From: Acidobacteriota bacterium
Lineage (GTDB): Bacteria; Acidobacteriota; Terriglobia; UBA7540
Assembly: GCA_902812365.1 (NCBI GenBank)
Contig: CADDZC010000004.1
Location: forward strand, 1 to 64,000
Length of the DNA stretch: 64,000 bases
Direction of reading: 5' to 3'
Shown here: positions 25,747 through 49,405 of the stretch, piece after piece
Layout of the letters: each line of letters begins with the position of its first letter
Numbering within the stretch: position 1 is the stretch's first letter
Notes under the pieces: generated by a model
The model's input: the letters and a program-made list of their open reading frames with translations, nothing else
The model's database searches: none
Told to the model about the DNA's origin: nothing
Translations under genes and position numbers: made by a program

Positions 25747-27066
25747 ATGAGATATCTCTGCTTTCGAGCCCTGCTTCGCGCCGGATTCGCGCTGGCGTTC
25801 CGGAGCCTGCGGATCTTGGAGATCGCGCGGATGCCGGATGGCCCGACCGTCTTGCTGATGGCCGGGCGCGTGCGTTTGATGGACTGCCTCATGGTGGTGG
25901 CGGGCCTGGAGCCGACCGTTCAGTGTTGGCTTCAGGCAGAACTCCTGAAGGGCTGGATCCCCCGCCTCCTCGCCTGGGGATTGGGTGTGGCGGTTGTCGG
26001 GCCTGAGGAGGGAGAATTACCGGCCGCTCCGGCGGCGTGCTTCGAAGCATTGTCCCGCCGCGCTTCGGTGCTGGTCGGTGGAAATCCCGCGGGTGCCGAG
26101 TCCACCCGGGCCTTTCCTGCAGCCACGCTCGCGGCCACGCTGGCGCTGCAGGCCGAGGCGGCGACGGCCGGGCAACTCGGGGTGTCGGTGGTGCCGGTTC
26201 ACACGCTGAGGCCTCTGTCATGGCGCGGCGACGCCTTTATCTACCTCGGTGATCCGGTCTTTGCCGAAGATTATGGCGCGGAACGGGGCGAAGCGCTGTC
26301 CATCCAGGCTTCGCGGTTGCAAACCGCCCTCGCCGCTGGCTGCCGGAGGAATCCGTTTTCGCTCCCCGCCGGCAGCGTGCAACACTTTCTGGCGAGCCTC
26401 GCCGGCCTCCTGCGCGAGGACGTCGAGGAGCAGTGGGCGGGGCGTCGTGAGTGGCAGCAGACGGTGGAGGGGTTCAGGCTCAGCGAGTTCGTCGAGGATT
26501 GGTGCCAAGAGACCAATCTGTTGGACCCGGCCGTGCTAGCGCGCCTCTGCCAGGCCATGGACGCCTATGACCGGTTGCGAAGGGGGTACTGGCTCGACAA
26601 GTTTGAGCGAGAGGGCGGCGTGTGGTTCCGGAGCGGCCTCCGGCGGATGCTCGCCGCAGTTGAGAGCCTGGCTGGATTTCCCTTGGCGCTGTATGGTCTG
26701 GTCAATCATTTTCTGGCCCTGATGGTGCTTGCAGCCGCGGGGCTGCTGCGGAATCGCGATCAGCGCGAACCGGCGGCATGGGCGGCGCGCGCCTTGATTG
26801 TGCTCGGGTGCTATGCGGCTCAAATCGCCGGGATCGAGCACGCGCTCGGCCGCTCGGCGGCCGGCTACTACGCCCCGACGTTGCCGCTGTCGGGGATTTA
26901 TCTGTGGAGATACGTTCGGCGGCTTCGGCGCCCGGGCCGCGGGTTCACCGCGGGCGTCTGGCCGTGGACAGGCGAATGGAGCCTGCGCCGCGCCCGCCAG
27001 CGGATACTGGCGCAAGTCAACCAATATCGTGACGCTTACGCCGACTGGCTTGGCGTCCCGCACTGA
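25747..27066 (+). CDS. Acyltransferase-like protein lacking the catalytic His
   Basis: The 439-residue protein follows the layout of glycerol/dihydroxyacetone-phosphate acyltransferases: an N-terminal RALLRAGFALAF helix, then GPTVLLMAGRVRLMDCLMVV at the place where the family has an NHPNxLLDPL-type HX4-5D motif, a segment around 150 with LSWRGDAFIYLGDPVF resembling FRSRVLLEFGEPI, and late hydrophobic helices (LALMVLAAAGLL, ALIVLGCYAAQIAG). The His is absent: an Arg or Val occupies the position while Asp is kept. This suggests a pseudoenzyme or an altered reaction. The gene has its own ATG and no overlaps. Confidence 0.65.
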   Translation: MRYLCFRALLRAGFALAFRSLRILEIARMPDGPTVLLMAGRVRLMDCLMVVAGLEPTVQCWLQAELLKGWIPRLLAWGLGVAVVGPEEGELPAAPAACFEALSRRASVLVGGNPAGAESTRAFPAATLAATLALQAEAATAGQLGVSVVPVHTLRPLSWRGDAFIYLGDPVFAEDYGAERGEALSIQASRLQTALAAGCRRNPFSLPAGSVQHFLASLAGLLREDVEEQWAGRREWQQTVEGFRLSEFVEDWCQETNLLDPAVLARLCQAMDAYDRLRRGYWLDKFEREGGVWFRSGLRRMLAAVESLAGFPLALYGLVNHFLALMVLAAAGLLRNRDQREPAAWAARALIVLGCYAAQIAGIEHALGRSAAGYYAPTLPLSGIYLWRYVRRLRRPGRGFTAGVWPWTGEWSLRRARQRILAQVNQYRDAYADWLGVPH

Positions 27067-27084: not shown

Positions 27085-28056
27085 GTGGCGATTTTTATCT
27101 CTGAATCGGAGGTTCAGGAACTCTTCCCGATGGAGAAGGCCTTCGACTGCGTCGAAGCCAGTCTGGTCGAGCAACATCGCGGGCGCGCGGTGAACCGTCC
27201 GCGGCAACGCATCTTTCTGCCCCACGTCTCCTTGCACTACATGGCTGCCGCCCTCCCGGGCGAGAATTGGCTGGGGATGAAGATTTATACGATCGCTCGT
27301 TCGGGTTGGCGATTCCTGGTGCTGTTGTACGACTCGGAAAGCGGCGACCTCCTGGCCGTGGTCGAGGCCGACCAGCTCGGCCGGATTCGCACCGGAGCGG
27401 CCAGCGGCGTGGCCACCCAATACATGGCTCGCACCGAGGCCAGGCGCGTGGGAATCATCGGCGCCGGACGCCAGGCGCGGACTCAACTGGCCGCCGTGGC
27501 CCAGGTTCGCCAGCTCACCGGGGTGAGAGTCTACAGCCGCGACGAGACGAGACGGCGGACGTTTGCCGATGAGATGAGCAGGCAACTTCGCCTTGAGGTC
27601 GAGCCGGCCCCAACCGCCGAAACCGCCGTTCGGTTCGGCGACATTGTCATCACCGCCACGAACGCGCGGGAACCGGTGCTGTTCGGAGCCTGGCTCCCTG
27701 AAGGTGTCCACATTAACGCCATCGGCGCCAACATGAGCAACCGCCGCGAAGTGGATGGCGAGACTCTCGCCCGCGCTTCGGTGATCGCCGTCGACAGCCT
27801 CGAGCAGGCCAAGCAGGAAGCGGGAGACCTCATCCAAGGATTGCCCTTCATTCGCGGCGGCTGGGACGCCGTGGTGGAGTTGCACGAGATCGTGGGCCGC
27901 AGCCACCCGGCCCGCCAGTCAGAAGCCGAGATCACGCTGTTCAAATCCTCTGGGATCGCGCTGTGGGATGTGGCTGCAGCCGGATACATCTATCGCCAGG
28001 CGGTCCAGCAGGGCAAAGGGCGGGAACTGGAAATCTGGAAACAGTCCGAGGGGTAA
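27085..28056 (+). CDS. Ornithine cyclodeaminase/mu-crystallin family protein
   Basis: The 323-residue protein has the family N terminus (ISESEVQELFPMEKAFDCVE), LGMKIYTIA, DQLGRIRTGAASGVATQY, the NAD-binding loop GAGRQARTQLAAV and VHINAIGANMSNRREV. The C-terminal SSGIALWDVAAAGYIY matches the motif SxGxAxxD-x-AAA. Such proteins are cyclodeaminases, imine reductases or amino-acid dehydrogenases; the exact reaction is not predictable. The conserved Lys after the N terminus (GMKIYT) and Arg-Thr-Gly-Ala are kept. It starts with a GTG 18 bases after the acyltransferase-like gene and may share its transcript. Confidence 0.88.
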   Translation: MAIFISESEVQELFPMEKAFDCVEASLVEQHRGRAVNRPRQRIFLPHVSLHYMAAALPGENWLGMKIYTIARSGWRFLVLLYDSESGDLLAVVEADQLGRIRTGAASGVATQYMARTEARRVGIIGAGRQARTQLAAVAQVRQLTGVRVYSRDETRRRTFADEMSRQLRLEVEPAPTAETAVRFGDIVITATNAREPVLFGAWLPEGVHINAIGANMSNRREVDGETLARASVIAVDSLEQAKQEAGDLIQGLPFIRGGWDAVVELHEIVGRSHPARQSEAEITLFKSSGIALWDVAAAGYIYRQAVQQGKGRELEIWKQSEG

Positions 28057-29772: not shown

Positions 29773-30414
29773 TCACCAAACCTGCGCTTGCCCCGTGATC
29801 CCCCCGGCCGAGGCCACCAGGTAAAGATTCGTGGCGTCGTAGGCCGTGGTCGCTTGAAACCAGATCGACCCGCTTGAGGTCATCTGAATGACCACGCCGA
29901 GCGGGGCCCGGCCCAGCCAGTGAGGGACGGTGAAATTGCCGGCGGCAGTGGGCGCGAGCGGCACCCTGCCGTAAATCTTGGTCGCCGCGATTGCTCCCGT
30001 GACCGCGGTACTGCTGGTCGTGACCTGGCCGATCAACGCGTCGCCGGCCGCCCCCGCCACAGGAGTTGCCTGATAATAGAAACCGGTCAGCGAATTGTAG
30101 AAGAGGTACGAAGCCGCGCCGCCGGGAGCCGGACTCAAGCTCGGCGGGAGCTGCGGGGCGTAGCGTACCCCCTGCGCGTAGAGAACTCCGACCGATAGCC
30201 CCGGGGTCAGGGTCGGCGACACCGACAGGACGAATCCCGAGACGACGCCGTTGAGTCCGAAATCGCGATATTGCAGATCGACAAGGTCCGACATGAACGC
30301 CACGTTGGCATCGAGCAGCGCCCAGTTCGCGTCCTGGTCGCTTTCGTAGCCTGTCAGGCCGTGTTGGGGTTGGATGAGGCCCTTCCTCGGTAAAATGGTG
30401 CGTACGGCGGCCAT
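29773..30414 (-). CDS. Phage tail fibre-like protein
   Basis: The 213-residue protein follows the hub and a small structural gene, the usual location of fibre or receptor-binding genes. It has an N-terminal helical part (NWALLDANVAFMSDLVDLQYRDF), then beta-rich segments with repeated Gly/Ser/Thr and a C-terminal unit with PHWLGRAPLGVVIQ and DATNLYLVASAGGITG. That C-terminal unit is closely similar to that of the 90-residue protein at 39545-39817, so the domain is duplicated. No enzymatic motif. Function as adhesin is inferred from position. Confidence 0.6.
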   Translation of the reverse strand: MAAVRTILPRKGLIQPQHGLTGYESDQDANWALLDANVAFMSDLVDLQYRDFGLNGVVSGFVLSVSPTLTPGLSVGVLYAQGVRYAPQLPPSLSPAPGGAASYLFYNSLTGFYYQATPVAGAAGDALIGQVTTSSTAVTGAIAATKIYGRVPLAPTAAGNFTVPHWLGRAPLGVVIQMTSSGSIWFQATTAYDATNLYLVASAGGITGQAQVW

Positions 30415-30462: not shown

Positions 30463-30945
30463 TCAGTTGCTGGTGTTCACGCTCGAGCGCTGCGCCAAAC
30501 AGTAAACCTTCACCGTGCCCTGATTCTGGGCGGCGTTGCCGGAAAAATAGACCTGGCAAGTCACCACGCCCGTGGCATCATTGATGTCCAGCGCGTACGG
30601 CGCGGCAATCAAGCTTCCCGTGCCCAAATCGCTCGGGGCCAGTGCCGGAAACCCGGCTTGACCCGGCGTGAAGCCGGCCCCCGGCTGCCGGCTGGACGCC
30701 AAAAAGCCGAGGAACATGCATTCGGAGCGCGAATACACGTATCCGTCAACCGGGCTGACCGGCGTCGGCACGGTGTTCCCCGAGGCGAAAAATCCCATGT
30801 AGAAAAACTCCGCCCGCACTGCCGCGAACTTGGCGTTGTGCGAAATCTTCAGGATCGTGTCGTCGGTGAGAGGCTGGCCGGCGGCTAGGGCGGCGTCGGC
30901 AAGGTCAAAAAATCCGGGAATCGAAGCGAGCGTAAGTTGAGACAT
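30463..30945 (-). CDS. Phage structural protein, unknown
   Basis: The 160-residue protein lies between the hub and the fibre-like gene. It begins MSQLTLASIPGFFDLADAAL and contains aromatic and small residues (FFYMGFFASGNTVPTPVSPVDGY is split here as FFYMGFFAS and SPVDGYVYSR) and a beta-rich C terminus with NDATGVVTCQVYFSGNA. The segment YSRSECMFLGFLASSR near the middle is notable for its Cys and aromatic residues. No family recognised; the position points to a baseplate or fibre component. Confidence 0.6.
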   Translation of the reverse strand: MSQLTLASIPGFFDLADAALAAGQPLTDDTILKISHNAKFAAVRAEFFYMGFFASGNTVPTPVSPVDGYVYSRSECMFLGFLASSRQPGAGFTPGQAGFPALAPSDLGTGSLIAAPYALDINDATGVVTCQVYFSGNAAQNQGTVKVYCLAQRSSVNTSN

Positions 30946-30996: not shown

Positions 30997-33900
30997 TCAG
31001 AAGATCGCATGGCCGGGCGAGCCGTCCGGGTTGAGGCCGCCGTTCGCCGCCGAGCTCACAAACATCAATTGGCGCCTCTGGGCCGGACTGGCGGCCGAAT
31101 AGGCCGGCACGCCCGCCGCCGCGATTCCGAACGGCGACGTCATTCTCATGAACCGCGTATCGAGCAAGCCAAACTCGATCAGGCCGGAAGCGTAATGAGG
31201 CTTGCGGTCGATGACCTCACCAACGACGTTGGTCAGGCCGCGTTGCCCGGTCAGAAAATCGGGCACGAGTCGATGGCTCAGCCACACGAAGTCGCCCACC
31301 TCGACCGGTAGCGCCGACAGCATGGCTCTCACCTGATATTGCGGCGTTCCGAAAGCGTGGCGGCGAAAAATCCGGTCGGCCAGCAGGAACGAGCGCAGCA
31401 GTCCGCCGCGTTCCAGCCGCAAGCCGTTCGCTTCGACCCGGTGCTTGAAGTGCTGACGGTACTGCGTCACCGAGTCGCCTTGCTGGTAGGTGATCTCGTG
31501 CTGGTATTGGCGCGCCGCCGTCTCGCGCACCGTGTCATCGACTCCGAAGCGGACCGTCACCGAGTTGATAATCGGCAGCCGCGTGACCGCCGGAATACCG
31601 ATGATGTTGTCTTCGTCGAGGGCCATCACCGGCGAAAGCACCTCGGGCGACTTCATTGACTTGAGGGAAAGCTGGCCGCCCGCCCGCACCACCGTGTACA
31701 GGCCCAGGACCTTCAGAATCTGGTCTTCCAACCACTGTTTGCCCTCCACCGGCCGTGTAATCTTGAACTCAAACCAATCGCCGGAAAACATCCCGTCGCG
31801 CAGCCGCAGGATCCCCGGCACGTCGAGATAAGGATTGGGATTGATCAGCGTCGTGTCGTCGCCGGGCTCGTATTGCGCCCAGAACGGGGGAGGCACGCTG
31901 GGATCCTGGCCGACTCCAAGCTCGTTCTGCATGGCGACGAGATAGATATCGAGCGGGTTTGCCGCTAGCCACCGCGGATTCTGCTCGCTCACGGGAAAGG
32001 CATTGGCTGCGACGGCCGCCCCGGACGGCTGCGGGGGAGCCGGCTGCCCGGCCGCCCACGCGCCCGGACCGCCGTTTGACCAAATCTGGGCGCCTTGCAT
32101 AAATCGCTGCACGTCGCTCGTCTCGAACGTAATGCGGCCGTCCGCCGTCCACCCGGTCGCGGTAATTTGCCGCGTCTCCAAGACCACAAAGTCTCCCAAG
32201 GCCTGCTCGGGAAATCCCATCTTTAATGTGGCCGTCTTGCCGATAAACTTCGGCTGTGACGCGAGGGCCTTCACCACGTCCCCCGGATCAATGCACTCGA
32301 CCGTCAGGGCCGAAACCGTCGAAGCGCCGTCGAGCTCGCTCGCGGTCTGACCTTGGCCGTCGGGGATGAAGAGGTAGGGCAAAGGCTGCGGATTCGTCGC
32401 CGTGCTCAGCAGCAGGGTGGGGTTGACCGAGGTCAGCCATTGCCAGCAGGTGGGAGCCAGCATCGGCCAAACCTCAAACTCGTAAGGAAGGCCGCGCGAG
32501 GCCAGCGAGTAGCCGAGAAGGGAACCGTCGCCGGTGGTGGCCCGCACCGTCCGCTGGCCGGCGACCAGCTTGGCAAGAAAACTGTCCAGACTGCCCTCGA
32601 CGCTGGCAAAGTAGGCGCTCACGCCGGGGGCGTTGTAAAGCGCGAGGAGCGCGAGAATCACTCCCCACGTGCCTTCCTGCCAGACCGAGACCGGAGACCC
32701 CGAGTAGCCGCCGGGCGAGTCGTTATAAGGCTTGAAGCCGCCAAACGGGGTGGATTGCGCGTAGGCTTGATTCCATGTATTCGCCAAGTTCGACTTGACG
32801 ATCGTTTGGCCCGTTACGTAGAACTTCTGGTAGACAAATTGAAGGCACTGCAAGGCCTTGGCGTCGTCGCCGGCGGCGTGGCACAGCAGCGCCGACCACG
32901 TCCCCGAAGCGTCCAGCGCCTGCGAGGTATCGAGCGTGTTCGCGGTGACGCCGGCGGCGAAATGACCCGGGTCGGCGGCGGGCGGAATATAAAGATGGGC
33001 CAAAACCTGCGCTTGGATCGTGGCGGCCGCCGACGCCACCTGCCGAGCGGTCGCGTTCAGAGATGTCGCCTGAGCCCCGGTAATCGCCCCGGTTTTCAGC
33101 AACTCGGTCGCGGCCGCGGGCAGCACGGCCGCCGCCCGGACGAAGGCGAAATAAGCATCGACCTGATGCTCGGTCGATACCGTCGCCTGCAGACCGGGCA
33201 CGAATTGATAACCCGGGTCCTGGTATCTCCCGTAGCCGGCGTAGAGCATTCCTTGCGTCAGGTCGGCGGCGGTGGACTGCAGGGTGAGCAAAAAGTTCAG
33301 CATGCGCTGCAGATAGAGGGCCGGCGAGAAATCGAGCGACATCTGCATGTAGAGCGCGTAGGCGTAACACACCCAAGCCATCGCGCCGGTGCGGATGTAA
33401 GCCTGATCGACCTGGCCGTAGTAAACGTCGTAGCTGAAACTGAGCGAGCCGTCGGGCTGCGGTCCGCCGACGCTAAGGTTGTCAAAATAGAGATCGCCCA
33501 CGGCGTTGAGGGTCACCTTGAAGGTGTTGACAGAGGTCAAAGTGTCGCCGGCGAGCGACTGCACGAGCGAGCCGAGAGCCACGAGCGTCGTGTGCCAATT
33601 GCTGTCCGCGGGAGCGATGGGGACTGAGATGGTCTTGGTGGCACTATTGTAAGCGGCGGGCGCGGCGAACGCGGGGCTAAGGGCGACGTCGGTCACGCGG
33701 CCCGAGCTGGTGGTGATTCCGATATCAAATTGGAACTGGTTGGTGAGCGCGGCCGCTTCCCGATGTTCAAACGACACGATCGAGTCGGTCGGATCGGGCA
33801 GGCCCGCTCCGACATAAGCAAAGCTGGCTCCGGCCGCGCTGGCATGAAACTGCAGAATGTTGCCCGTGCCGTAAGGCGGCTCCTGAGGCATGACGGAGCT

Positions 33901-35019
33901 GGCCGCCATGTTGGTCACGCTGCCGTTGGTGGCGCTCCACCGCGCGGTGGAGCCGTCCTCGGCGTTTTCCAAGATCAGCGACGCCAGATACCCCGGATGA
34001 TCAAGGAATTGGTTCAGTTGGCGAATCACCTTGGAGGCGGCGGTGAAATTGCCGGCCTCCGAGCAAGTCAGAATGAATAGCGCGGCGTCGTAAATGAAGC
34101 TGCGGTTTTGAAGGGCCGGGGCGTTGGTGGCTGTCACGTCGGGCACGTACAGCGGGTCCGACGTGGGGACGATGAAGGATCGAGGCAGGCCTTGATAAGC
34201 CGCGAGATTCTGCAGCGAGCTGTAAACTGGCGTCGGCCCGGCCACAGGATCGTTATAGACGATGTGCAGGGTGAGGACGCCGGAGGCGGGGACCCGGCTC
34301 GAGCCGGAGCGCGCGTGGTGCGAGTCCTGAACGATGATGGGAATCTGGTCTTCCTGCAGATATTCGATGTCGGTCTTAACGTATAGACGAGCGAAATACG
34401 CCGACAACTTCGGGCCCACGCCCATGTTGGAATGAGCCACCCATCCCGCGGGCAAGGCCGGATAGCCGGCCCCCGCCGGCGGTGGCGGCACGGCCGCCGG
34501 ATACAGGACGGCGATCACCGAGCCGCTCATGACCGGGGCCACGCTCCACGTCGCCACGCCGCCGCCGGCATCGGTCAGGCCGGAGCTCGCCTGGTAATAG
34601 AATTGATCGGTTCGCGCGAAGACATCGACGCGATAGTTGGCTGCCGGCTGGAGAAGCGAAAAACACCGGCCCGTCACCGTTTGTGCTCCGGTGTTCTGGA
34701 ACGTGTTCACGAACACGTTGCCGGTCGCCAGGCCGCGGGGAGAAAAGTTGATCGGAAAGCCGTCCGGCCCGGGGGTCGCGTCCGGGAGGACGCCGGCCGG
34801 CGCGTCGATCACGATGTTTTCAACGGCGGCGGTGGCGAAGGCGGAAAGATCGGCGCTCGACACGATGCCGCACTCGGCGAGCGGCGCCGCCGTCGGGGTG
34901 GCCGCGGCACTCGCCTGCCAGTTGCCCACCGGGCCGCTTTGACGCCAATAAATCCAGTTGAGCGTCTGCTTCAGGTCGCCCCAAAAATCGCCGGGATAAT
35001 ATTGCGCGACAGATGGCAT
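30997..35019 (-). CDS. Phage tail hub/receptor-binding protein with inserted glycosidase-like region
   Basis: At 1340 residues this is the largest protein of the island. The N terminus (MPSVAQYYPGDFWGDLKQTL) and first 350 residues are beta-rich. Residues about 540-850 are helical and aromatic in alternation (YYGQVDQAYIRTGAMAWVCY, TSQALDASGTWSALL, VWQEGTWGVILALLALYN, LPYEFEVWPMLAP), the pattern of an alpha/alpha-toroid glycosidase. The last 400 residues (WFEFKITRPVEGKQWLEDQI, NSVTVRFGVDDTVRETAAR, LSALPVEVGDFVWLSHRLVP) resemble gp27/J-like tail hub proteins. The likely role is adsorption with surface-glycan cleavage. No sequence-level catalytic assignment is made. Codon use and GC look like the island's. 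Confidence 0.7.
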   Translation of the reverse strand: MPSVAQYYPGDFWGDLKQTLNWIYWRQSGPVGNWQASAAATPTAAPLAECGIVSSADLSAFATAAVENIVIDAPAGVLPDATPGPDGFPINFSPRGLATGNVFVNTFQNTGAQTVTGRCFSLLQPAANYRVDVFARTDQFYYQASSGLTDAGGGVATWSVAPVMSGSVIAVLYPAAVPPPPAGAGYPALPAGWVAHSNMGVGPKLSAYFARLYVKTDIEYLQEDQIPIIVQDSHHARSGSSRVPASGVLTLHIVYNDPVAGPTPVYSSLQNLAAYQGLPRSFIVPTSDPLYVPDVTATNAPALQNRSFIYDAALFILTCSEAGNFTAASKVIRQLNQFLDHPGYLASLILENAEDGSTARWSATNGSVTNMAASSVMPQEPPYGTGNILQFHASAAGASFAYVGAGLPDPTDSIVSFEHREAAALTNQFQFDIGITTSSGRVTDVALSPAFAAPAAYNSATKTISVPIAPADSNWHTTLVALGSLVQSLAGDTLTSVNTFKVTLNAVGDLYFDNLSVGGPQPDGSLSFSYDVYYGQVDQAYIRTGAMAWVCYAYALYMQMSLDFSPALYLQRMLNFLLTLQSTAADLTQGMLYAGYGRYQDPGYQFVPGLQATVSTEHQVDAYFAFVRAAAVLPAAATELLKTGAITGAQATSLNATARQVASAAATIQAQVLAHLYIPPAADPGHFAAGVTANTLDTSQALDASGTWSALLCHAAGDDAKALQCLQFVYQKFYVTGQTIVKSNLANTWNQAYAQSTPFGGFKPYNDSPGGYSGSPVSVWQEGTWGVILALLALYNAPGVSAYFASVEGSLDSFLAKLVAGQRTVRATTGDGSLLGYSLASRGLPYEFEVWPMLAPTCWQWLTSVNPTLLLSTATNPQPLPYLFIPDGQGQTASELDGASTVSALTVECIDPGDVVKALASQPKFIGKTATLKMGFPEQALGDFVVLETRQITATGWTADGRITFETSDVQRFMQGAQIWSNGGPGAWAAGQPAPPQPSGAAVAANAFPVSEQNPRWLAANPLDIYLVAMQNELGVGQDPSVPPPFWAQYEPGDDTTLINPNPYLDVPGILRLRDGMFSGDWFEFKITRPVEGKQWLEDQILKVLGLYTVVRAGGQLSLKSMKSPEVLSPVMALDEDNIIGIPAVTRLPIINSVTVRFGVDDTVRETAARQYQHEITYQQGDSVTQYRQHFKHRVEANGLRLERGGLLRSFLLADRIFRRHAFGTPQYQVRAMLSALPVEVGDFVWLSHRLVPDFLTGQRGLTNVVGEVIDRKPHYASGLIEFGLLDTRFMRMTSPFGIAAAGVPAYSAASPAQRRQLMFVSSAANGGLNPDGSPGHAIF

Positions 35020-35049: not shown

Positions 35050-35226
35050 TTAGGTTCCGTATCCTCCAATTCCGTACGGGACGACGCCGTAACCACCCAA
35101 AACAACCCCGGCCGTGATCGTGAAGCTTGCCAGGATCAAGCCGTAGTCCGCGATTTCGAACACGTAAAGGGGCTGTTTCGCCGGATCGGCGAGCGCATGG
35201 AGCCAAGCTTGGTTACCCACTATCAT
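35050..35226 (-). CDS. Small phage tail protein (58 residues)
   Basis: A short gene between the hub and the distal tail gene. It starts with ATG at 35226 and stops with TAA at 35052-35050. The peptide begins MIVGNQAWLHALADPAK, has a segment YVFEIADYGLILASF, and ends in a glycine/tyrosine-rich GGYGVVPYGIGGYGT tail. It fits the gap exactly, with 31 bases on each side, and has no competing frame. The Gly/Tyr tail is typical of short surface-exposed virion peptides. Function unknown. Confidence 0.55.
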   Translation of the reverse strand: MIVGNQAWLHALADPAKQPLYVFEIADYGLILASFTITAGVVLGGYGVVPYGIGGYGT

Positions 35227-35257: not shown

Positions 35258-35644
35258 CTACCCCACCACCGCCTGCCGGAACTTCACGCTGAGCGTGTAT
35301 TTACCGGGAGCCTTGTACCGAGCCACCGACTGGGTGTCCTCCAGCCAGTAATTGGTGAAGGCGGCTTGGGAGGCGTCCGGGTAGTAACTGAACTGGCCGC
35401 CGGCCAGCGCATACTGCATAAAAGCGCTCCAGGCTGCGACATCGGCCCCATTCAGGATCCACTCCAGTTCCAGCGTCAGAAACTGATCCACGCGCTCGGT
35501 CACCGACTCGCGGACGCCCGAGCTGGCGACGTTGTCGTGGCGGACAGCCTCAAAGGCGTAAGCGGGGACGCGTCGGGGCGGATACTGGAAGTTCAAGGTG
35601 ACCGGACCCGACCCGGGGTCGTAGACAATCTTGGGATTGGCCAT
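35258..35644 (-). CDS. Distal tail/baseplate protein, phage
   Basis: The 128-residue protein starts MANPKIVYDPGSGPVTLNF and ends ARYKAPGKYTLSVKFRQ. It is beta-rich with YPPRRVPAYAFEAVRHD and LELEWILNGADVAAWSAFMQYAL. The pattern, a short beta domain with a YDPGxGPVTLNF start, is seen in small distal-tail proteins of siphovirus-like phages encoded directly before the hub. Position right after the tape measure supports that reading. Function inferred. Confidence 0.6.
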   Translation of the reverse strand: MANPKIVYDPGSGPVTLNFQYPPRRVPAYAFEAVRHDNVASSGVRESVTERVDQFLTLELEWILNGADVAAWSAFMQYALAGGQFSYYPDASQAAFTNYWLEDTQSVARYKAPGKYTLSVKFRQAVVG

Positions 35645-35707: not shown

Positions 35708-35893
35708 TCAGGCCGTCCACGGATGCCTGAATCTTCCCGGGCCGCCGCTCAGCGCGGAGGGCCCGGTCACGAGCCCAAGTATTACCGGTTCAGAAACTAC
35801 AGTGTAACCTGTCAGCAGGCGTTTGTCAAGAGTTATTTTGGCGATTTCAGTGCCGGCGCCCTCCGATATCGCTAACTGATTCTCTGTCATCAT
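35708..35893 (-). CDS. Possible small phage protein coupled to the tape measure gene
   Basis: The frame begins with an ATG (35893) that overlaps the TGA stop of the tape measure gene (35890), a coupling common in phage late operons. It encodes 61 residues: a polar MTENQLAISEGAGTEI, a middle with ITLDKRLLTGYTVVSEPVI and a Pro/Gly-rich tail. No family. The overlap is the main support; the region from 35650 to 35700 is A/T-rich and noncoding. It could equally be a chance frame. Confidence 0.35.
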   Translation of the reverse strand: MMTENQLAISEGAGTEIAKITLDKRLLTGYTVVSEPVILGLVTGPSALSGGPGRFRHPWTA

Positions 35894-36636
35894 CTTACTG
35901 CTGTTGCCGGGCGCTTCGTGTGGCTGGCCACCAGACGCACGTCGTATCGTTCGACTCCCGTGTTGATCACCTTCGCCAGCCATTGGGCGGCCTGGGGCTC
36001 CCCGAGCACCAGGACGTTGAGGACGCCGCCGCCCGGCCGGGCCGCGACCGGCGGCGCGGGTGCGCCAGCCGCTGCTTCCCTCTGCTCGCCGCGCGCCGAG
36101 GTCCCGCTCGCAACGCTTCTCGCCTCGAGCCCGGCCGGACTGGGCAGCGCTCCGGCCATCGCTCCGGCGGCGCCACCGATGGCTCCCCACAGGGCCGCCG
36201 ACCGGAAGGCGTTGGCCGAGCCCGTCAGATCGCCCAGAGCCAAAAGGTAAAAACCCAGCCCGAGGCTCCGCAGGGCCTGCAGAATTGATTCGGCCGTGAT
36301 GGCCATGGCCGTAGCCCGCAGCGCCCGCGCGGCCGCCTCTCCGACCGACTTCGAATAGGCCAGCGCCACGGCGATGTTCATCGTCATGCCTTGGGCCAGT
36401 TCATCGAATGCGATCGCGGCTCCCTGGCGAAAACTCGTGAGCGCCCCTTCGCCGAGTGAAAGCTGGCTGCGGAAATTCTCTCCCCAGGCGGCCAAGTCCT
36501 TGGCCACCATCCGAAATTCCGATCGCAGCGAGTCGGTCTGAGCGCTCACGTGCCGTCGGAAATGCTCGAGCGCGCCGACCGCCTGGGAGGGGTCGGCGGA
36601 GATTTGAAACAGAAGGCCGACGGTATTGTCTGCCAT
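35890..36636 (-). CDS. Short phage tail tape measure-like protein
   Basis: The 248-residue protein is alanine-rich and helical: a polar first 130 residues (SADPSQAVGALEHFRRHV, EFRMVAKDLAAWGENFRSQL), a hydrophobic Gly/Ala part (AALWGAIGGAAGAMAGALPSP), and a basic Pro/Gly tail. It lies right after the two tail chaperones, the normal position of the tape measure gene. Tape measures are normally 600-2000 residues; at roughly 0.15 nm per residue this one would specify a tail of only about 37 nm. If it is the tape measure, the tail is unusually short; alternatively it is a partial or different tail protein. Confidence 0.55.
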   Translation of the reverse strand: MADNTVGLLFQISADPSQAVGALEHFRRHVSAQTDSLRSEFRMVAKDLAAWGENFRSQLSLGEGALTSFRQGAAIAFDELAQGMTMNIAVALAYSKSVGEAAARALRATAMAITAESILQALRSLGLGFYLLALGDLTGSANAFRSAALWGAIGGAAGAMAGALPSPAGLEARSVASGTSARGEQREAAAGAPAPPVAARPGGGVLNVLVLGEPQAAQWLAKVINTGVERYDVRLVASHTKRPATAVR

Positions 36637-37306: not shown

Positions 37307-37918
37307 CTACAACTGCCGGTAGAACTGGGCGACGCGGTCGCCGGGGGGGCGGCTCAGAACCGCCAAGCCGTCGAATCGCACCTTATACACGGCCTCTTTC
37401 GAGCGCGTGAAACCGATCTGAAACGGCTCTTTGGCATAAGCGTTGTACAGGCACGCCACCACGAATTTTCCCGGCGAGCTGAAGCCGCGCCGCGGCGAGA
37501 TGAGGGCCACGGCCGCCTGCGGAATGCTCACCAGCCCGCCCACGGTGATCTGCTCGTAGTTTTGCGCGCCGGCAGGCAGGCCGGCGTCGGTGCCGCTGGT
37601 GTAGGCTGCGTGGGCGAGCGCCTTCGAAATTTTGACGAGCGAGGACTCCTTGAGCGTCACTTCCAGATAGGCGCTCTCCGCGGTCATCACCGAATCCACG
37701 GGCGCCGTCTCTTGGTCGATGGCGATCTCCTCGATTTTCGCCTCCAGGTGAAACGTCGAGGCCCCGTCGGAGGCGCCCATCGGGATCGGCGATCCGCCCA
37801 GAGGATTCCCGTTCGCATCCACGAGCAGACGGGCTCCGACCGCCGGCACCTGCACGCCGTACCAGAGCATTCCCGTGCCCTGGTGTATATCCGGAACCGT
37901 GATCGTAAAACCTGCCAT
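37307..37918 (-). CDS. Phage major tail tube protein
   Basis: The 203-residue protein lies after a terminator-like protein and before the chaperones, as major tail tube genes do. It begins MAGFTITVPDIHQGTG and has beta-rich segments (LEVTLKESSLVKIS, NYEQITVGGLVSIPQAA, YNAYAKEPFQIGFTRSKEA) with the repeated strand-turn pattern of tube proteins. There is no gene for a tail sheath in the island, so the tail should be non-contractile. The function is inferred from order and fold pattern. Confidence 0.7.
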   Translation of the reverse strand: MAGFTITVPDIHQGTGMLWYGVQVPAVGARLLVDANGNPLGGSPIPMGASDGASTFHLEAKIEEIAIDQETAPVDSVMTAESAYLEVTLKESSLVKISKALAHAAYTSGTDAGLPAGAQNYEQITVGGLVSIPQAAVALISPRRGFSSPGKFVVACLYNAYAKEPFQIGFTRSKEAVYKVRFDGLAVLSRPPGDRVAQFYRQL

Positions 37919-37937: not shown

Positions 37938-38474
37938 TTACACTTCTTCCATCTGGAACTGCACTGCCAGCGTCACGCGCAGCACGGGAACCTCCATCTG
38001 CTGGAGGTTGACCAGCCCATAGGCGTGAGACTCGACGAACACCTCTTTCACCGAACCGGCGGCGGGCGGCGTGGTGGTGCCGCTCGGGACGGTTTCGTGG
38101 ACGATGGGCAGCGGAGTCTCCCAGTCGGCCGTGGTGGCGGTGGTCACGATCATATCCAGCACGCGCGCGTAATCATGGGCGTTATCCTGCGCCATCTCCT
38201 GGTCAAACTGGCCCACATCGAGCGCCAGCGTCACCCGCGAGCGAGACTGGCGCGGTCCGACCACGTCGGGCGCGAAGGCGATGCTATCCGCCGCCAGCGT
38301 TAACCAGGGAAAGGCCGTGCGCAGGCCCGGCCCCTTGTGAAACTCGCTGATCGGGCTCAAGGCCGTGTTGACAATGGCGATCGCCGCCGCCTGATCCCGT
38401 TGCACGATGGCAATCAGTTGGTTCAGCAACGGCTTGACAAAACCTGCGTTGTACGCCGGCGTGTAAGCCATCAT
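37938..38474 (-). CDS. Tail terminator/completion-like protein (gp37-like)
   Basis: The 178-residue protein starts at the ATG pair at 38474/38471 (MMAYTPAYNAGFVKPLL) and overlaps the previous gene by a few bases. It has helix LLNQLIAIVQRDQAAAIAIVN, then beta strands with WETPLPIVHETVPSGTT and VNLQQMEVPVLRVTLAVQFQ. Between gpG-like and tail tube genes, Mu-type phages have gp37/gp38 or a tail terminator; this gene is in that place. No closer assignment is possible. Confidence 0.6.
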   Translation of the reverse strand: MMAYTPAYNAGFVKPLLNQLIAIVQRDQAAAIAIVNTALSPISEFHKGPGLRTAFPWLTLAADSIAFAPDVVGPRQSRSRVTLALDVGQFDQEMAQDNAHDYARVLDMIVTTATTADWETPLPIVHETVPSGTTTPPAAGSVKEVFVESHAYGLVNLQQMEVPVLRVTLAVQFQMEEV

Positions 38475-38989
38475 CCCACCCGATCCGGCCCCCGCGCGGC
38501 CAGGCTCCAGCCGCTGTGGCTCGCCAGGCGGCGCGCCCAGGCGCGCCAGGGCTGCGCCAGCGCCTCGCGTTCCTCTTCGGAACCGTCCCGCGCAAAATCG
38601 AAAATCGCCCGGCGCGGCACGCGGCCCGACCGTGGCGCTTCCGACTCTCCGTAGACGGCGTACGGAACGGCGGTTCCGAAAGCCAAGCGGCGGGGCGAAC
38701 CCTCGACGACACTCTCCGGCGAGCCGCCGGCGAGCGATTCGAACAATCGGTCCGTCGCCCGCATCAGGGGCTGGCCAGGGTGCCGCCTCGCTTTGCGGGC
38801 CGCGTACCGAGGGCTCAGGGGCGGCCAAGTCCCGCCTCCGGCGCTCTCAAAGCGCCGGCGGACCGCCGTGCGGACGGCCTCGGCGACCTCCCCCCAAGCG
38901 CCGCTCCAGTCGTTCAGAGCCTTCTCGAAGCGCTCCACCGTGGCGCGAAGCTCGCGGTCATGGATGTCCAGCGCCAATTCCATCATCAT
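38471..38989 (-). CDS. Phage virion morphogenesis protein (gpG-like)
   Basis: The 172-residue protein starts at the first of three consecutive ATG codons (38989). It matches the small Mu gpG-type virion morphogenesis proteins: N-terminal helix (ELRATVERFEKALNDW), then RRRFESAGGGTWPPLSPRYAA, HPGQPLMRATDRLFESLAGG and a C-terminal FGTAVPYAVYGESE. The segment with Trp-Pro-Pro-Leu and Leu-x-x-Ser-Leu is a signature of the family. Its role is tail-head joining or completion. It shares four bases with the next gene. Confidence 0.78.
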   Translation of the reverse strand: MMMELALDIHDRELRATVERFEKALNDWSGAWGEVAEAVRTAVRRRFESAGGGTWPPLSPRYAARKARRHPGQPLMRATDRLFESLAGGSPESVVEGSPRRLAFGTAVPYAVYGESEAPRSGRVPRRAIFDFARDGSEEEREALAQPWRAWARRLASHSGWSLAARGPDRVG

Positions 38990-39544: not shown

Positions 39545-39817
39545 TCAATATTCCGCGTAAACCGTGCCCGCCGTGGCGCCGCCGGCCGCGACGGTGATGT
39601 AAAGGTTGGTGGCGTCCGGCGGCGACGTTTCACCCCAGCCGCCGCCCGCGCCCGGCTCGTAGGAAGCCGTCAGGGGTGTGGATGGCAAACCGTGCGGAAT
39701 GACGTTCGCCGCCCCGGCCGTCAGCCCAGCAATCACCAGCTTGACCTTACGGATCGGCACGCCCCGGTAGGTCTGCAGAACATAAGCGTTCCTGGTTGCA
39801 ACTGTTATCCCCGCCAT
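39545..39817 (-). CDS. Small phage virion protein with fibre-type domain
   Basis: The 90-residue protein (MAGITVATRNAYVLQTYRG ...) is beta-rich. Its C-terminal half, with PHGLPSTPLTASY and DATNLYITVAAGGATAG, is clearly related to the end of the fibre-like protein at 29773-30414. So the same small domain occurs as a stand-alone gene near the capsid genes and as a domain in a fibre-like protein. Functionally it may be a decoration or surface domain. No enzyme motif. Confidence 0.6.
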   Translation of the reverse strand: MAGITVATRNAYVLQTYRGVPIRKVKLVIAGLTAGAANVIPHGLPSTPLTASYEPGAGGGWGETSPPDATNLYITVAAGGATAGTVYAEY

Positions 39818-40079: not shown

Positions 40080-41018
40080 TTAGGCCACGGCGTTGATGAA
40101 GCAGATTCCCGCCGCCGGAGCGACAATCTGCACGTCGTCGTAGCGATGAACCTCGATCGCATCGGCCATGCGATTCTCGACGCGGTAGCGCTTCACCAGC
40201 GTCCCGGCCAGTTCCGGCGCCCCGAACAACCACCGAAAGGTGTAGCCCAGGGCGATTTCGCGGCGGCGGGGTTCGGGCGGGACATAGGCCAGGAGCGCGG
40301 TTTTGCCCCACACAAAATTCAGGCTGGGAGGCTGGCCTTCCGTCGCCGTGTCGTACTCGGCGCCCATCACCCAGAAGTTGTCCACATCGAAGGCGCTTTT
40401 GAGGTGGTCGGCCTGCAGGATGCCGACTTGGGTGTACTTGAAGCGGTCGATGATGCGCGGATGCTGCCGCAGCGCGGCGTAGACCGGATAAGACACCGCG
40501 AGCGTGTTTGGCGTCAACGCCACCGCCTGCTTGACCACCGTCTTTTGCGCCTCCACCGCCGAAATCGGGTCCGAGTTCACGTAGTCGGACCATTGCGACG
40601 TCCCCGACAGAGTGACGCTCGGCACCGGCGAGCTCGGCCCCATCACCAGGTTTTTTACCCGGATTTCGAAATCGAGCAGAATCGCGTCGGTCAGGTTCTC
40701 GACCGTATTGACTTCGAGATCGGTGCCGTCGGAGTTGGCGCGTTCTTCGTCGGAAATCGCGTCCTTCAGCGAGTGATCGTCGCAGAAATAAGGATTATTG
40801 GCGAGGGTCCAGGGCGCGACTTCGCGCGCCTCCGCCTTGGCGTGCCGGATCGTCTCGTACTGGCGGAATTTCTCCTTGCCAAAGACCCAGTAACGTCCGC
40901 TCTGCTTCTTGACGGGGACGACCGGGAAGAGTTTTTCCGCGAAGTAGTCGTCATTTTTGTAGCCCACGCTGACGTTATTGAGCGGTTGATCGAGGTATTG
41001 AAGGGAAATATCGGCCAT
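40080..41018 (-). CDS. Phage major capsid protein
   Basis: The 312-residue protein starts MADISLQYLDQPLNNVSVGY and contains AEKLFPVVPVKKQSGRYWVF, TLSGTSQWSDYVNSDPI and HPRIIDRFKYTQVGI, the pattern of HK97-fold capsid proteins of transposable and related siphophages. It follows the decoration gene and protease gene, so the usual order protease-decoration-capsid is kept. It lacks a long N-terminal scaffold, which is presumably supplied by the C-terminal part of the protease gene. The start at 41018 is the first ATG. Confidence 0.8.
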   Translation of the reverse strand: MADISLQYLDQPLNNVSVGYKNDDYFAEKLFPVVPVKKQSGRYWVFGKEKFRQYETIRHAKAEAREVAPWTLANNPYFCDDHSLKDAISDEERANSDGTDLEVNTVENLTDAILLDFEIRVKNLVMGPSSPVPSVTLSGTSQWSDYVNSDPISAVEAQKTVVKQAVALTPNTLAVSYPVYAALRQHPRIIDRFKYTQVGILQADHLKSAFDVDNFWVMGAEYDTATEGQPPSLNFVWGKTALLAYVPPEPRRREIALGYTFRWLFGAPELAGTLVKRYRVENRMADAIEVHRYDDVQIVAPAAGICFINAVA

Positions 41019-41826: not shown

Positions 41827-43284
41827 TCACGACGCGACGCCCGCCCCCACTCCGCTCGGCGCGCCGTCAGGACCGATCCGTTTGTTGTGGGCGGCGCGGT
41901 AGCGAGCCTCAAGAGCCGGATCGTCGCGCAGCAGTTGCTTGAGCGCCTGGCCGTAACTGATGTTCCGTTCGCTCATCAGCCGCCGGACTCCCAAATCAAC
42001 TTCCTGGTCGACGGGCACCGGCTCGCCGGAACCGATGCCTTCGGATCCGAATCGCACCACGGGCATCGCTCTTTCCACGAACGCCGCGAATTCCTTAGGG
42101 CGTTCCAGGGCGTCGCGGAAGAAAAACTGGCGGTCGCGCGGCAGGATTTTGCCTCGCATGACCGCTTGGTTGAGTGCCCGCTCGGCTTCCTGGGCGGCGA
42201 TGTAGTCGGCCAGGCTGATCCTGCCGGTGCGGGCCAGCAGCTCCGCCCGGCGGTTGTCGAGCTGACCGTCCTTCACCGCTTCCGCCAGCAGCAGCTTCCA
42301 CGAGGCTTCGGCGTGGCGCTTTTCCTCGGCTTCCTGAGCGGCCGCGAGGCGTTGCCGGACCTGCTCGAGGGTCGTCCCGGGCGTTACGCCCAGCCGCTCG
42401 GCAAAACGCTCTGACGTTTTCTCCTGGTCGAACTCGTCGAAGTCCGGATTCACGCCGAGATGCTCCCTGGCGTACCCCCGGAGATGTTCATCGCTCAGGT
42501 AGCCCACCAGGTCATCGCCGTCAAAGATGCCGTGATGTCCGGCGTGCTTTCCCTCGGTCAGCTTTTTGAGACACAGTTCTTTGGCCATCGTGCTCTCTCC
42601 TTGTGAGCGGATTCCGGCGGAGGCGGCGGGCCCGTCCAGGCAGCCCGCCGAGACGTCGGCGAGCACCACGGCCCGCCGGGGCCCGCTGCCCCGGGAGAAT
42701 CCAAAGTCGGTCAGCAGAATCGGCGGCAGCTCTTCCAGAAAGGGATGATTCGTCAGCGCCCCGCTGGTCAGCGTGGCCCCCTGCGGCTGGCCCGTCTCCT
42801 TGTCGCGGAATCCCCAGTCGATCGCCGGAGAAAAAAAGCGGTATTGCCCGTTGCGGATCATCTCGCGGGCCTCTGGCGTCCATTCCACCAGCGCGCAGAG
42901 AAGATCGGAATCCGAAGATGACGAGGGCGACGTGCGGTCTCTTCGCATTCCCCAACCCCCGACTGCCAGCTGATGAATCCATCCGGCGGCGGGGATGGGT
43001 CCACCTTTCGCCACCTCCGGTTGTTCGCTGGCGTGCTCGTAGTCGATGACCACCTGGTGGTTCTCGCGCTTTTTGAAATTGCGCACCATGTCCGCCAAAT
43101 CCTGCCGCGTGATCGAGAAGCGATGCTCGCCTTTGACCCAGGTGCCCGTAATGGCCACGGGAATCTCATAAAGCTCCTTGCCGTTCTGCGGCAGGGGAGG
43201 GGCCAAGGAAAGCAGGACGGCGATGTGCCGCCCTTGGGGGTTGGCTTCCTGAGGTCCAATTTTCATCACTTGATCCACCACCAT
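41827..43284 (-). CDS. Phage capsid maturation protease and scaffold (Mu I-like)
   Basis: The 485-residue protein starts at the ATG at 43284, behind a GGAGAGGAA site; the frame is open to a TTG at 43338, which is less likely. The N-terminal protease part has FSITRQDLADMVRNF, VVIDYEHASEQPEVAK with the active-site-like His, and RNGQYRFFSPAIDW with the Ser of the Mu I protease family. The C-terminal half is long, charged and helical (LEQVRQRLAAAQEAEEKRHA), fitting a scaffold. The Mu I protein also carries protease and scaffold (Z) in one gene. It precedes decoration and capsid genes. Confidence 0.8.
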   Translation of the reverse strand: MVVDQVMKIGPQEANPQGRHIAVLLSLAPPLPQNGKELYEIPVAITGTWVKGEHRFSITRQDLADMVRNFKKRENHQVVIDYEHASEQPEVAKGGPIPAAGWIHQLAVGGWGMRRDRTSPSSSSDSDLLCALVEWTPEAREMIRNGQYRFFSPAIDWGFRDKETGQPQGATLTSGALTNHPFLEELPPILLTDFGFSRGSGPRRAVVLADVSAGCLDGPAASAGIRSQGESTMAKELCLKKLTEGKHAGHHGIFDGDDLVGYLSDEHLRGYAREHLGVNPDFDEFDQEKTSERFAERLGVTPGTTLEQVRQRLAAAQEAEEKRHAEASWKLLLAEAVKDGQLDNRRAELLARTGRISLADYIAAQEAERALNQAVMRGKILPRDRQFFFRDALERPKEFAAFVERAMPVVRFGSEGIGSGEPVPVDQEVDLGVRRLMSERNISYGQALKQLLRDDPALEARYRAAHNKRIGPDGAPSGVGAGVAS

Positions 43285-44040: not shown

Positions 44041-45693
44041 TCAAACCCTTTCTGCGGCGATACCGTCGCGTCCTGCGGTGTCGGTGGCTGCGAAGGCGTC
44101 ATCGGCCGCGTCCGTCGGAGTTTCGCCCGATCCGCGGGCGTCGTCTTCCTCGATCGTCTCGCCGCGCGCCGTCGCCACGCCGTGTCCGGTCTCCGGCGGC
44201 AGCGCCAGCTCTTCGCGGATGAAGCGGCGCAGGTTCTCTTCCGAAACGACGAGCCCGGCCTGCGCAAACTGGGTGAGCGTGTTGACGATGTCGGGAAGAC
44301 CCCGCGACTCGACGTTGGCGGCCACAATCTGCGGATACGGGGCTCCTTCGCCGAAGTTGTATTCTGCCAGTCGCCGCGCGGTCGTAGCCGTCAGCTCGAA
44401 GGCGATCTGATCGGCCAGATTTTGCAAGGCCAGCAGGAAAAAACTGCCGTGTTGCTTGCCCAGGGCCCGGGAACCATGCTCGGCCTGGCCCAGGTCCATG
44501 AAAAGGGCGAGTGCGGCGCGCGAGATCATCACGTTGTGGTGCTGGATCGAGGGCGCCAGGTCGCGCACCCGCCCTTCGTAGCCAACAATTCGGAAGCCAC
44601 TCGCCGCGTCGCCGGGCGGCTCAACGATCCCCGTCGCCTCATGGGCGCAAATTTGGGTGACGAAGTTGTAGGCCGTCTGCTGGTCCTCTTTGGAGAAACC
44701 GGGCGGAAGCTTGAAAACCGGCACGCCCAGCGAATTCCGCTCGCAGGCGATGGCATCGATGCGGTACAGCTGGCTTTTGACGTACCAGTGCGGATACATG
44801 GCGCGCGACAGAGCCAGGCCCCAGAAGTTGGCGCCTTCCCGCTGATAGCTGAACACCGTGCACTTGTCCGCCGGCACGAGAGCGGTCATGAAGCGGCCGC
44901 GGCGATATCCGTACTGCTCGAGCGCCAGCAGCGTTTCCCCGTCTTCTTCGGTGTGCCAGCGATAAAACGTCAGCGGCAGCCGTGCCGCCAGCCGGCGCAG
45001 CCGGATGTGGGGGCCGTCCACGGTCCAGACCTCCTCGTGGACGGCGCATCCGAAGTCGAGCATGAGGAGCGCGTTGTGAATGATATCGGGCCACGGCTGC
45101 GAAACCCATCCCCCCGTCGAGCGCCGAAATTCCAGGCCGCCGAAAAGGTTGTCGCGCACGAAGTCGGCCACCTCTTGGGCCCTGCGTTCCGCGCCCACTC
45201 CGCGCACGCGCGGACCGCGATAGGGGACGACGTTCCATTTCGCTGAAAGCACGGGCAGTTTGCAGGCGGCAAGAGTGGCCCGCACTTGGGCATCTCCCCG
45301 GCGCATCTTTTCGTAAGTGGGGATGGCCGCGCGGCCCGACAGTTCGGGGTTATATTCGCCCAGATCTTCGAGAAAACCGCTAATAATGGGCGTGCCCGAA
45401 ACTCCGTAAACTCCCGCGACCGGCTCCGGAGGCTTGCTGCCCGGCTGGGGATCGCGCACCGGTTGGACCGGGGCGGCGCCGGGGATGAGATGAGCCAGCC
45501 GGCGTCCGATCGTGGTGTCGGCGAGCGATGCCGCGCCGAGGCCGGCCTCCTGATCGGCCCGAGCGACCGCCCGATCCAGCCGCTCCGCCCATCGAGCGCC
45601 CTCGCGGCGCACTGCCGCGCGCACCGCTTGTCGGAGCTCGCGCTCGAGCGCCCGCCCCTGATGACCGTTGCCCGAACTGTGACCCTTGTTCAT
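44041..45693 (-). CDS. Phage portal protein (Mu gp29/DUF935-like)
   Basis: The 550-residue protein is a portal of DUF935 type: segments EYNPELSGRAAIPTYEKMRRGDAQVR is the typical core (shown here in two parts, LGEYNPELSG and YEKMRRGDAQV), LLMLDFGCAVHEEVW, RWHTEEDG, FMTALVPADKCTVFSY and NFWGLALSRAMYPHWYVK. The C-terminal part has an acidic tail with Glu/Asp repeats. Portals form the packaging channel. It lies after the terminase and holin genes and before the metallopeptidase-like gene, the usual order being terminase then portal. No defect visible. Confidence 0.85.
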   Translation of the reverse strand: MNKGHSSGNGHQGRALERELRQAVRAAVRREGARWAERLDRAVARADQEAGLGAASLADTTIGRRLAHLIPGAAPVQPVRDPQPGSKPPEPVAGVYGVSGTPIISGFLEDLGEYNPELSGRAAIPTYEKMRRGDAQVRATLAACKLPVLSAKWNVVPYRGPRVRGVGAERRAQEVADFVRDNLFGGLEFRRSTGGWVSQPWPDIIHNALLMLDFGCAVHEEVWTVDGPHIRLRRLAARLPLTFYRWHTEEDGETLLALEQYGYRRGRFMTALVPADKCTVFSYQREGANFWGLALSRAMYPHWYVKSQLYRIDAIACERNSLGVPVFKLPPGFSKEDQQTAYNFVTQICAHEATGIVEPPGDAASGFRIVGYEGRVRDLAPSIQHHNVMISRAALALFMDLGQAEHGSRALGKQHGSFFLLALQNLADQIAFELTATTARRLAEYNFGEGAPYPQIVAANVESRGLPDIVNTLTQFAQAGLVVSEENLRRFIREELALPPETGHGVATARGETIEEDDARGSGETPTDAADDAFAATDTAGRDGIAAERV

Positions 45694-45760: not shown

Positions 45761-46249
45761 TCACTTGCCGCCCGGCACTTTGGACGGTGCCGCGGCCTTC
45801 GCGTCCGGATTGGCCCGCTGATAACCCTTCGCCTTTTCCCACGTTCGGGCTCCGGTGTAGCCGAGAAACGCGACGCCGAAAAGCTGCAAGTAGGCGGCGG
45901 GAATATCCATGGGCTTCAGCCCTTGATGCAAAAAGGCATTTCCCACCGGGCAGACAATCAGCGAAAAGGCGATCGCCGCGATCATGACGTAGAGGAAGGT
46001 GGGCCGGGCGCGCCGCACGTAAGCGTCTTCACTCTGCGTCTCGGCGGTGATGTTCTTGGACTGAATCTCCGCCAGCGCCTGATCGCGCGCCGCGAGGATT
46101 TCCTCGCGCTTGACCGCCAGCTCCTGGGCGGCCTGCTGCATCTGCAGCTTCTGTTCCGGCGACAAGTGGAACTGATCGATCAAGTCGCTGATCGACTTGA
46201 CCGGGTCGCCCCCTACAATCCCCTTGAAGATGTCGAGAAAACCTGCCAT
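45761..46249 (-). CDS. Holin of the 3-TM type
   Basis: The 162-residue protein has a long helical N-terminal part (SPEQKLQMQQAAQELAVKREEIL) ending in SEDAYVRRARPTFLYVMI, a hallmark of GTA-type 3-TM holins, then membrane segments (FLYVMIAAIAFSLIVCPVG, YLQLFGVAFLGYTGA). It would permeabilise the membrane for lysis. No recognisable endolysin is encoded near it. Its position between terminase and portal, rather than in a terminal lysis cassette, is worth noting. Confidence 0.8.
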   Translation of the reverse strand: MAGFLDIFKGIVGGDPVKSISDLIDQFHLSPEQKLQMQQAAQELAVKREEILAARDQALAEIQSKNITAETQSEDAYVRRARPTFLYVMIAAIAFSLIVCPVGNAFLHQGLKPMDIPAAYLQLFGVAFLGYTGARTWEKAKGYQRANPDAKAAAPSKVPGGK

Positions 46250-48947: not shown

Positions 48948-48976
48948 CTGCCCTTTCCCCTGCCAACCCCGGCGCG

Positions 48977-49405
48977 TCAGTTGTAAGCCATCCCGCTCAG
49001 CATCGCCACGGTGATGGCCGGCGTGTTCGCGGCGTTGGATTTTCGGCATCGAATCCAGCGGATGGCGTGATTGACGGGAACCACCGTGTCGGTGGTGATC
49101 GACTGCGCCCCGTAGGCCACGCTGCCGTCGCCCGGCGCGGGCGGCTTCAAGGCCGGAATCGAGGCCTGATTGGAGACGAAAATTTGCACCGCGTCTCCCT
49201 CGTTGAACCCGTGGACCACAATGCTGAACGGCAGAATGAAGCGCCCCACATCAATCCACTGTCCTTCGGTCACCCCCGCCGAATCGAGAATCGTGGTGTT
49301 GACCAAGTTGGCGATGGAAGACGCCGCCAGCGTCGACCCCGCCGGCGCCGTCGACGACGTGACCGCGCTGGACTTGGAAAAACTGAAAAGCCTTCGAAGG
49401 TTCAA
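48977..49405 (-). CDS. Phage protein, beta-rich, unknown
   Basis: The 142-residue protein (MNLRRLFSFSKSSAVTSST ...) lies 29 bases before the terminase. It is beta-rich with VGRFILPFSIVVHGFNEGD and VAYGAQSITTDTVVPVNHAIR. Such beta-rich proteins here are often additional capsid or head fibre components. No family is recognised. The start is the first ATG and there is no competing frame. Confidence 0.5.
   Translation of the reverse strand: MNLRRLFSFSKSSAVTSSTAPAGSTLAASSIANLVNTTILDSAGVTEGQWIDVGRFILPFSIVVHGFNEGDAVQIFVSNQASIPALKPPAPGDGSVAYGAQSITTDTVVPVNHAIRWIRCRKSNAANTPAITVAMLSGMAYN

Follow-up and report, generated by a model that had tools for sequence, protein, structure and literature searches.

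A tail hub fused to a predicted enzyme fold

In this study, we examined a gene of the minus strand at positions 31000-35019 of a 64,000-nucleotide stretch of DNA, analysed whole and called here the window (contig CADDZC010000004.1 of assembly GCA_902812365.1, an Acidobacteriota bacterium of the Terriglobia, UBA7540), together with the phage-derived element that carries it. Our findings argue that its product is probably the hub of a siphovirus-like tail tip that bears a polysaccharide-processing toroid, encoded by an element largely inherited through its host family. The open reading frame (ORF) starts with ATG, runs to a stop codon at 30997-30999 and encodes 1340 residues, as a preliminary description of the DNA had recorded without giving the strand. 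Given that 23 relatives align with it over residues 200-885 (47-69% identity), and that the ratio of nonsynonymous to synonymous divergence (dN/dS) of its toroid is 0.10-0.18 in seven within-genus pairs, the ORF is not a chance one. From the N terminus, all on the minus strand, the protein comprises a beta-rich part that varies among relatives (residues 1-290, 34150-35019; modelled from residue 200 on), the first helical hairpin of an alpha/alpha toroid (residues 300-345, 33985-34122; hairpin at about 301-340), a beta-sandwich lodged between hairpins 1 and 2 (residues 346-519, 33463-33984), hairpins 2-6 of the toroid (residues 520-870, 32410-33462) and a hub fold of the gp27/VgrG/J type (residues 880-1290, 31150-32382).

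A first search returned seven relatives, six on IMG/VR contigs (best segments 42-55% identical) and one in a Coprococcus phage (28% across residues 523-871); profile scans contributed a further 16 loci, all on genome contigs titled Acidobacteria or Terriglobia, and four viral contigs. Three loci, L006 (in which an insertion breaks the gene), L019 and L021, were kept out of the alignments of residues 200-885 (A2) and 870-1340 (A3). A Pfam scan of the 1340-residue protein gave no family at E<=1, that of 24 relatives gave matches at chance level only, a plasmid search with residues 519-885 found no relative, and the PHROG matches of the protein were weak ones to tail-fibre families (residues 517-738).

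The toroid was modelled with AlphaFold from residues 200-885 and the 23 relatives (A2; mean predicted local distance difference test score, pLDDT, 78.8; predicted template modelling score, pTM, 0.80), the toroid helices lying mostly above 90 and residues 200-300 being of low confidence. Six helical hairpins close an alpha/alpha toroid at residues ~300-870, with VIA Z scores of 21-27 to many toroid enzymes: the best is the methylmannose polysaccharide hydrolase MmpH (7qsj; Z 27.2, 294 residues, 3.3 A), followed by AGE-type epimerases (Z ~24-25), GH76 mannanases (~24), the unsaturated glucuronyl hydrolase 2fv0 (23.5) and GH94 phosphorylases (~23). Neither GH8 nor GH9 was recognised among the 50 VIA matches listed, which hold other toroid families, and neither is thereby excluded. 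The best match in a viral structure library was F9VHN7 (585 aa, E 1.4e-11), and Foldseek matched the inserted sandwich (~346-519) to CBM11. The preliminary description had proposed a strand-free helical block at residues 540-850, like that of alpha/alpha toroid glycosidases, and had called for a fold prediction; the model bears out the glycosidase-like fold and the helical character, yet the block is larger than supposed, its first hairpin is split off by the sandwich, and beta-hairpins border the active-site mouth.

The model of residues 870-1340 (A3, pLDDT 78.7) has the gp27/VgrG/J hub fold over its range 1-428, with VIA matches to the hub of phage Milano (Z 18.7), VgrG1 (18.6), lambda J (16.1), T4 gp27 (14.7) and the gene transfer agent (GTA) RcGTA (structure 6tba_8A, 12.6), and the gene stands after the tape measure within a tail module. 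Since this model matches full tail hubs and shows the whole fold from about residue 872 on, the enzyme-like block precedes an intact hub, to which it is fused. The gp27/J-like C terminus that had been surmised extends to a full hub fold (~880-1290), whereas the idea of an enzyme inserted into the hub fold is ruled out. The enzyme block itself is exchangeable by sequence comparison, because G419, of the same host family, bears other domains in the place of the toroid: its hub is 31% identical across residues 881-1340, and the different N-terminal part ahead of it holds two sections. The first resembles the poly-GlcNAc deacetylases PgaB/IcaB/BpsB (best E 1e-7), whereas the second is GH18/chitinase/YaaH-like (PDB 5jh8, E 4e-10; Pfam GH18 at E 6e-6, slightly short of its cut-off). 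Plain hubs of the same family and gene order, with no enzyme block, occur as a second copy in G439 (509 aa) and in G651 (~470 aa), the sole match outside the host family.

Conservation is concentrated at the toroid mouth. The polar residues Y541, R543, E617, H618, D621, D697, D703, E782, E847 and W859 are invariant in the 24 aligned rows; the carboxylates there, among which the preliminary description had asked for a pair to be identified, include E617 in an EH motif (33169-33171), D697 (32929-32931), D703 at the start of helix 7 (32911-32913), E782 of VWQEGTW (32674-32676) and E847 of LPYEFEVWP (32479-32481), all on the minus strand; the two motifs that it had singled out, VWQEGTW and YEFEVWP, lie at residues 779-785 and 846-852. 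On the active face, 47 of 132 positions are kept in at least 23 of the 24 rows, compared with 4/43 in the loops of the opposite face and 29/220 in the rest of the toroid, and only 2 of 395 circular shifts reached the observed active-face conservation, in a test that is not blind, as the five segments before odd-numbered helices that define this face were chosen after the invariant residues had been seen. Structural genes are under purifying selection, with dN/dS of 0.02-0.25 where unsaturated and one decayed copy (G428); many synonymous divergence (dS) values lie above 1, close to saturation. In the seven within-genus pairs that gave the toroid ratios above, the hub domain has 0.07-0.14, the N-terminal 290 residues 0.10-0.24 and the sandwich 0.08-0.25 (one pair saturated); the capsid protein shows 0.025-0.066 in six pairs.

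Distribution and descent in the host family

Within one bacterial family the element is close to universal, a distribution missing from the preliminary description. The hub profile was found in 31 of the 39 family genomes (17/18 genera), the capsid protein in 32/39 and the terminase in 33/39 (18/18 genera); at least one of the three is present in 37 genomes, all but G405 and G429, and all three in 26. Several of these genomes are incomplete metagenome-assembled ones, and the host control gene, which we take to be ClpX, is present in all 39. The profile of the hub domain matched 28/39 family members, left one added genome of another family unmatched and, across the class, matched 29 of 399 genomes, of which one (G651) is among the 360 outside the family. 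The toroid profile matched 27/39 members and, in a draw across the phylum, 1/396, namely the window's own genome (0/395 others).

Most groupings of the ClpX tree recur in the capsid tree, which recovers a clade of g1, g213, g215, g224 and g227 (there joined by g225), the genera g212, g219, g221 and g228, and the pairs inside g212. Distances of ClpX and capsid are correlated (r 0.59, n 28, 0/9999 permutations), as are those of ClpX and toroid (r 0.60, n 21, 0/9999); the Mantel permutation treats genomes as exchangeable, and with one genome per genus the correlations are weaker (r 0.35, 51/9999, and r 0.51, 26/9999, respectively). Relatives covering <60% of a gene were excluded from trees and distances, G409 and G439 were represented in the distance test by their copies on contigs C429 and C10, and one hub comparison was made without G419. 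In most of eight genome pairs the dS of the element is near that of the host; for G438-G440 the host has 0.70-0.71 and the element 0.38-0.68, and for G413-G414 the element is the more diverged (1.10-1.13 vs 0.58).

Both flanks of the element are common to G426, G428, G438 and G440 (genera g221, g223 and g228), with only a remnant of the element left between them in G428, and to G419, where the ends lie on separate contigs. One of these flanks, with a host gene that adjoins the element in several genera (27085-28056, plus strand; presumably ornithine-cyclodeaminase-like), is shared also by the window, G416 and G439, and its neighbouring genes by G420. Four observations weigh against simple descent. 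In G403 and G414 two flank genes lie ~400 bases apart, the element being absent there and present elsewhere in the genome; members of g227 share a different flank, so that the element has several sites; G404, G406, G409 and G439 have additional capsid copies; and in the hub tree G426 groups with G431/G436, and G416 with part of g227, in conflict with host and capsid trees. One fixed chromosomal site for the whole family is ruled out by the empty junctions, in g212 and g214, and by the other flank in g227. Shared flanks, empty junctions and alternative sites together suggest an old element, inherited for the most part yet not immobile.

These four observations also count in favour of an ordinary temperate phage lineage, undomesticated, of narrow host range and with a preferred integration site; element sites other than the shared one in g212 as well as g227, and related contigs in IMG/VR, speak for such a lineage too. 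We regard this account as possible, if doubtful. It fits poorly with hub, capsid or terminase in nearly every family genome, set against a single hub among the 360 genomes outside, with element dS near host dS in most pairs, and with the correlation of capsid and host distances. Moreover, no integrase, transposase, repressor or replication PHROG was found in the 28 scanned of 29 predicted genes (29435-52174, the gene at 39545-39760 left out) of an element whose ends are undefined, and the six PF00589 matches in the genome all lie off its contig. A separate observation concerns genus g212, in which the extra genes of G404, G406 and G409 make up a second capsid lineage, perhaps duplicated, perhaps of a separate element.

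Likely function and known relatives

The likeness to MmpH, a mycobacterial enzyme of 14% identity, is that of the shared alpha/alpha toroid. In MmpH the acid is reported as Asp47 or Asp50 and the base as Glu262 (PMC9883506). The Coprococcus phage NatCom_10489 has the same toroid in its protein XTK82734.1 (its residues 276-660 align) and the same mouth, keeping Y530, D531, Y541, R543, E617, H618, D697, D703, Y772, E782, E847 and W859; its gene is the second after the tape measure, with one gene between. Unlike the window protein, XTK82734.1 has no sandwich, carries the toroid at its C terminus and is annotated as hypothetical. Several points weigh against an enzymatic reading: a PDB sequence search found no relative of the toroid, which is claimed by no Pfam or PDB sequence family, so that membership in GH8, GH9 or another CAZy family is not established; profile tests did not place it in the MmpH/GH63-GH125-like, GH76, AGE or C5-epimerase families; a catalytic pair is not fixed by superposition; the E847 loop has low pLDDT; and D621, invariant in the 24 rows, is changed in the Coprococcus phage.

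A uronic-acid-type polysaccharide lyase or C5-epimerase, in place of a hydrolase, is suggested by Foldseek, which ranks D-glucuronyl C5-epimerase first (E 2e-10). The TM score of that match is only ~0.2 across the whole model. The many invariant Tyr residues at the mouth, with R543 and H618, form a set that we take to be reminiscent of toroid polysaccharide lyases. The best whole-fold VIA matches are instead a mannan hydrolase, AGE epimerases and GH76, and we consider a lyase or epimerase unlikely. It is improbable that the toroid has no catalysis and serves as a lectin-like receptor-binding domain, recognising a glycan that it leaves uncut: the lack of a demonstrated catalytic pair, the CBM-like look of the inserted sandwich and the replacement deacetylase of G419, read from its sequence to be without the aspartates usual in the first motif of such enzymes, would fit it, yet in 24 relatives the carboxylates, Tyr, Arg and His of the mouth never vary, and the Coprococcus phage retains most of them, a conservation beyond that expected of a binding surface under host-range pressure, and dN of the sandwich exceeds that of the toroid in 5/7 pairs.

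The reading that we prefer, a tail-tip hub with a polysaccharide-processing toroid, would work as follows. The C-terminal hub would close the tail tube, and the beta-rich part and the (alpha/alpha)6 toroid with its carbohydrate-binding-like sandwich would hang from the tip ahead of it; the toroid would most likely bind and cleave, by hydrolysis or by lyase/epimerase chemistry, the exopolysaccharide of related soil Acidobacteria, which would let the tip reach the outer membrane before DNA delivery. Such degradation at attachment had also been suggested by the preliminary description. The gene itself belongs to a phage-derived element that seems to have passed, mostly by inheritance, through nearly all of the host family. 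In a survey of phage depolymerases, an alpha/alpha toroid is given for 11 of 984 (PMC11326577); the text available describes none of these virion toroids as hub-fused, unlike the window protein. Having the enzyme block swapped between unrelated polysaccharide-acting folds within one hub family makes the role of enzyme-like domains in tail hubs directly testable.

The closest architectural parallel is the megatron of RcGTA, Rcc01698 (g15), described as having adhesin-like, peripheral, central gp27-like and fibre-binding domains (PMC7296036). As in that protein, where an N-terminal adhesin-like part and a peripheral domain precede the T4 gp27-like one, a carbohydrate-enzyme-type fold lies N-terminal to a gp27-like domain in the window protein. 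However, the peripheral domain of RcGTA is a TIM barrel, its function described as unknown (PMC13420450, a 2026 preprint), where the window protein bears an alpha/alpha toroid and its sandwich; RcGTA also divides its gp27-like parts between two proteins, and sequence homology is not shown. GTAs are characterised as derivatives of phages that the host has exapted and transmits vertically, and that package no more than part of their own genome (PMC9662315); of this description, vertical transmission may apply to the present element in part. A GTA-like domesticated element analogous to RcGTA is plausible but unproven. Several and empty chromosomal sites, extra copies and hub exchange between lineages count against it, for an element known from genes alone. 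More specifically, and as a tentative proposal only, it could be a new, independently domesticated GTA-like element, ancestral to the whole Acidobacteria family, with an exchangeable hub module and a megatron parallel that arose by convergence, and serving exopolysaccharide crossing to kin. Were this so, vertically kept DNA-transfer particles would extend to an abundant soil group, and the particle would cross the exopolysaccharide of kin cells for DNA delivery. Our literature search returned no report of such particles in this group; one source lists 35 prophages in Acidobacteria and, as far as its available text goes, uses "gene transfer agent" in a general sense only (PMC5900883).

Neighbouring genes and minor observations

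The hub gene sits in a structural set of the minus strand, most of it assigned by PHROG matches. Upstream of it lie a 58-aa gene conserved in 22 loci (35050-35226), a conserved tail-tip gene of 128 aa with no PHROG match (35258-35644), a short tape-measure-like gene of 248 aa (35890-36636; weak match) and genes for a major tail protein-like product (37307-37918), a tail completion/neck protein (38471-38989), the major head protein (phrog_1005; 40080-41018), a head maturation protease (41827-43284), the portal (44041-45693), a holin-like protein (45761-46249) and the terminase large subunit (47451-49049); a decoration-like gene belongs to the set as well, and one element gene weakly matches a family named Rnase E (E 0.0085). 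Downstream of the hub follow conserved genes of 160 aa (30463-30945) and 213 aa (29773-30414), the latter two, like the rest, on the minus strand. A tRNA-Gly called by ARAGORN (99 bases, 26846-26944) was rejected as an attachment site because it lies inside an ORF with relatives in other genera; the call is probably spurious.

The tape-measure-like ORF of the window is short beside those of the second copy in G439 (711 aa, L142:11585-13717) and of G651 (809 aa, L172:12077-14503), and a short tail is possible for the window element, judging from these ORFs. In G412 only ~190 bases separate the neighbours of the tape measure (L055:5604-5790; the same gene pair in L017), the gene itself being apparently missing, and this element may be defective. 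In the viral contig L006 a sequence that reads as a transposase-like insertion (9885-11170) breaks the hub gene. Nine genomes have, upstream of the terminase, a gene that by eye resembles a lysozyme or transglycosylase (L069:11767-12834, L070:10148-11026, L072:5991-6767, L165 and L166); two of these tested gave no Pfam match, and the upstream flank in the window holds no counterpart. In several genomes the hub gene is followed downstream by genes for pectate-lyase-like or beta-helix spikes, of which none was found in the window. Spike- or fibre-like genes at L049:5774-7780, L050:14493-16541, L142:5239-6915 and L172:1900-5295 have starts that by eye resemble signal peptides; such starts are odd for virion parts, and the products may be secreted enzymes.

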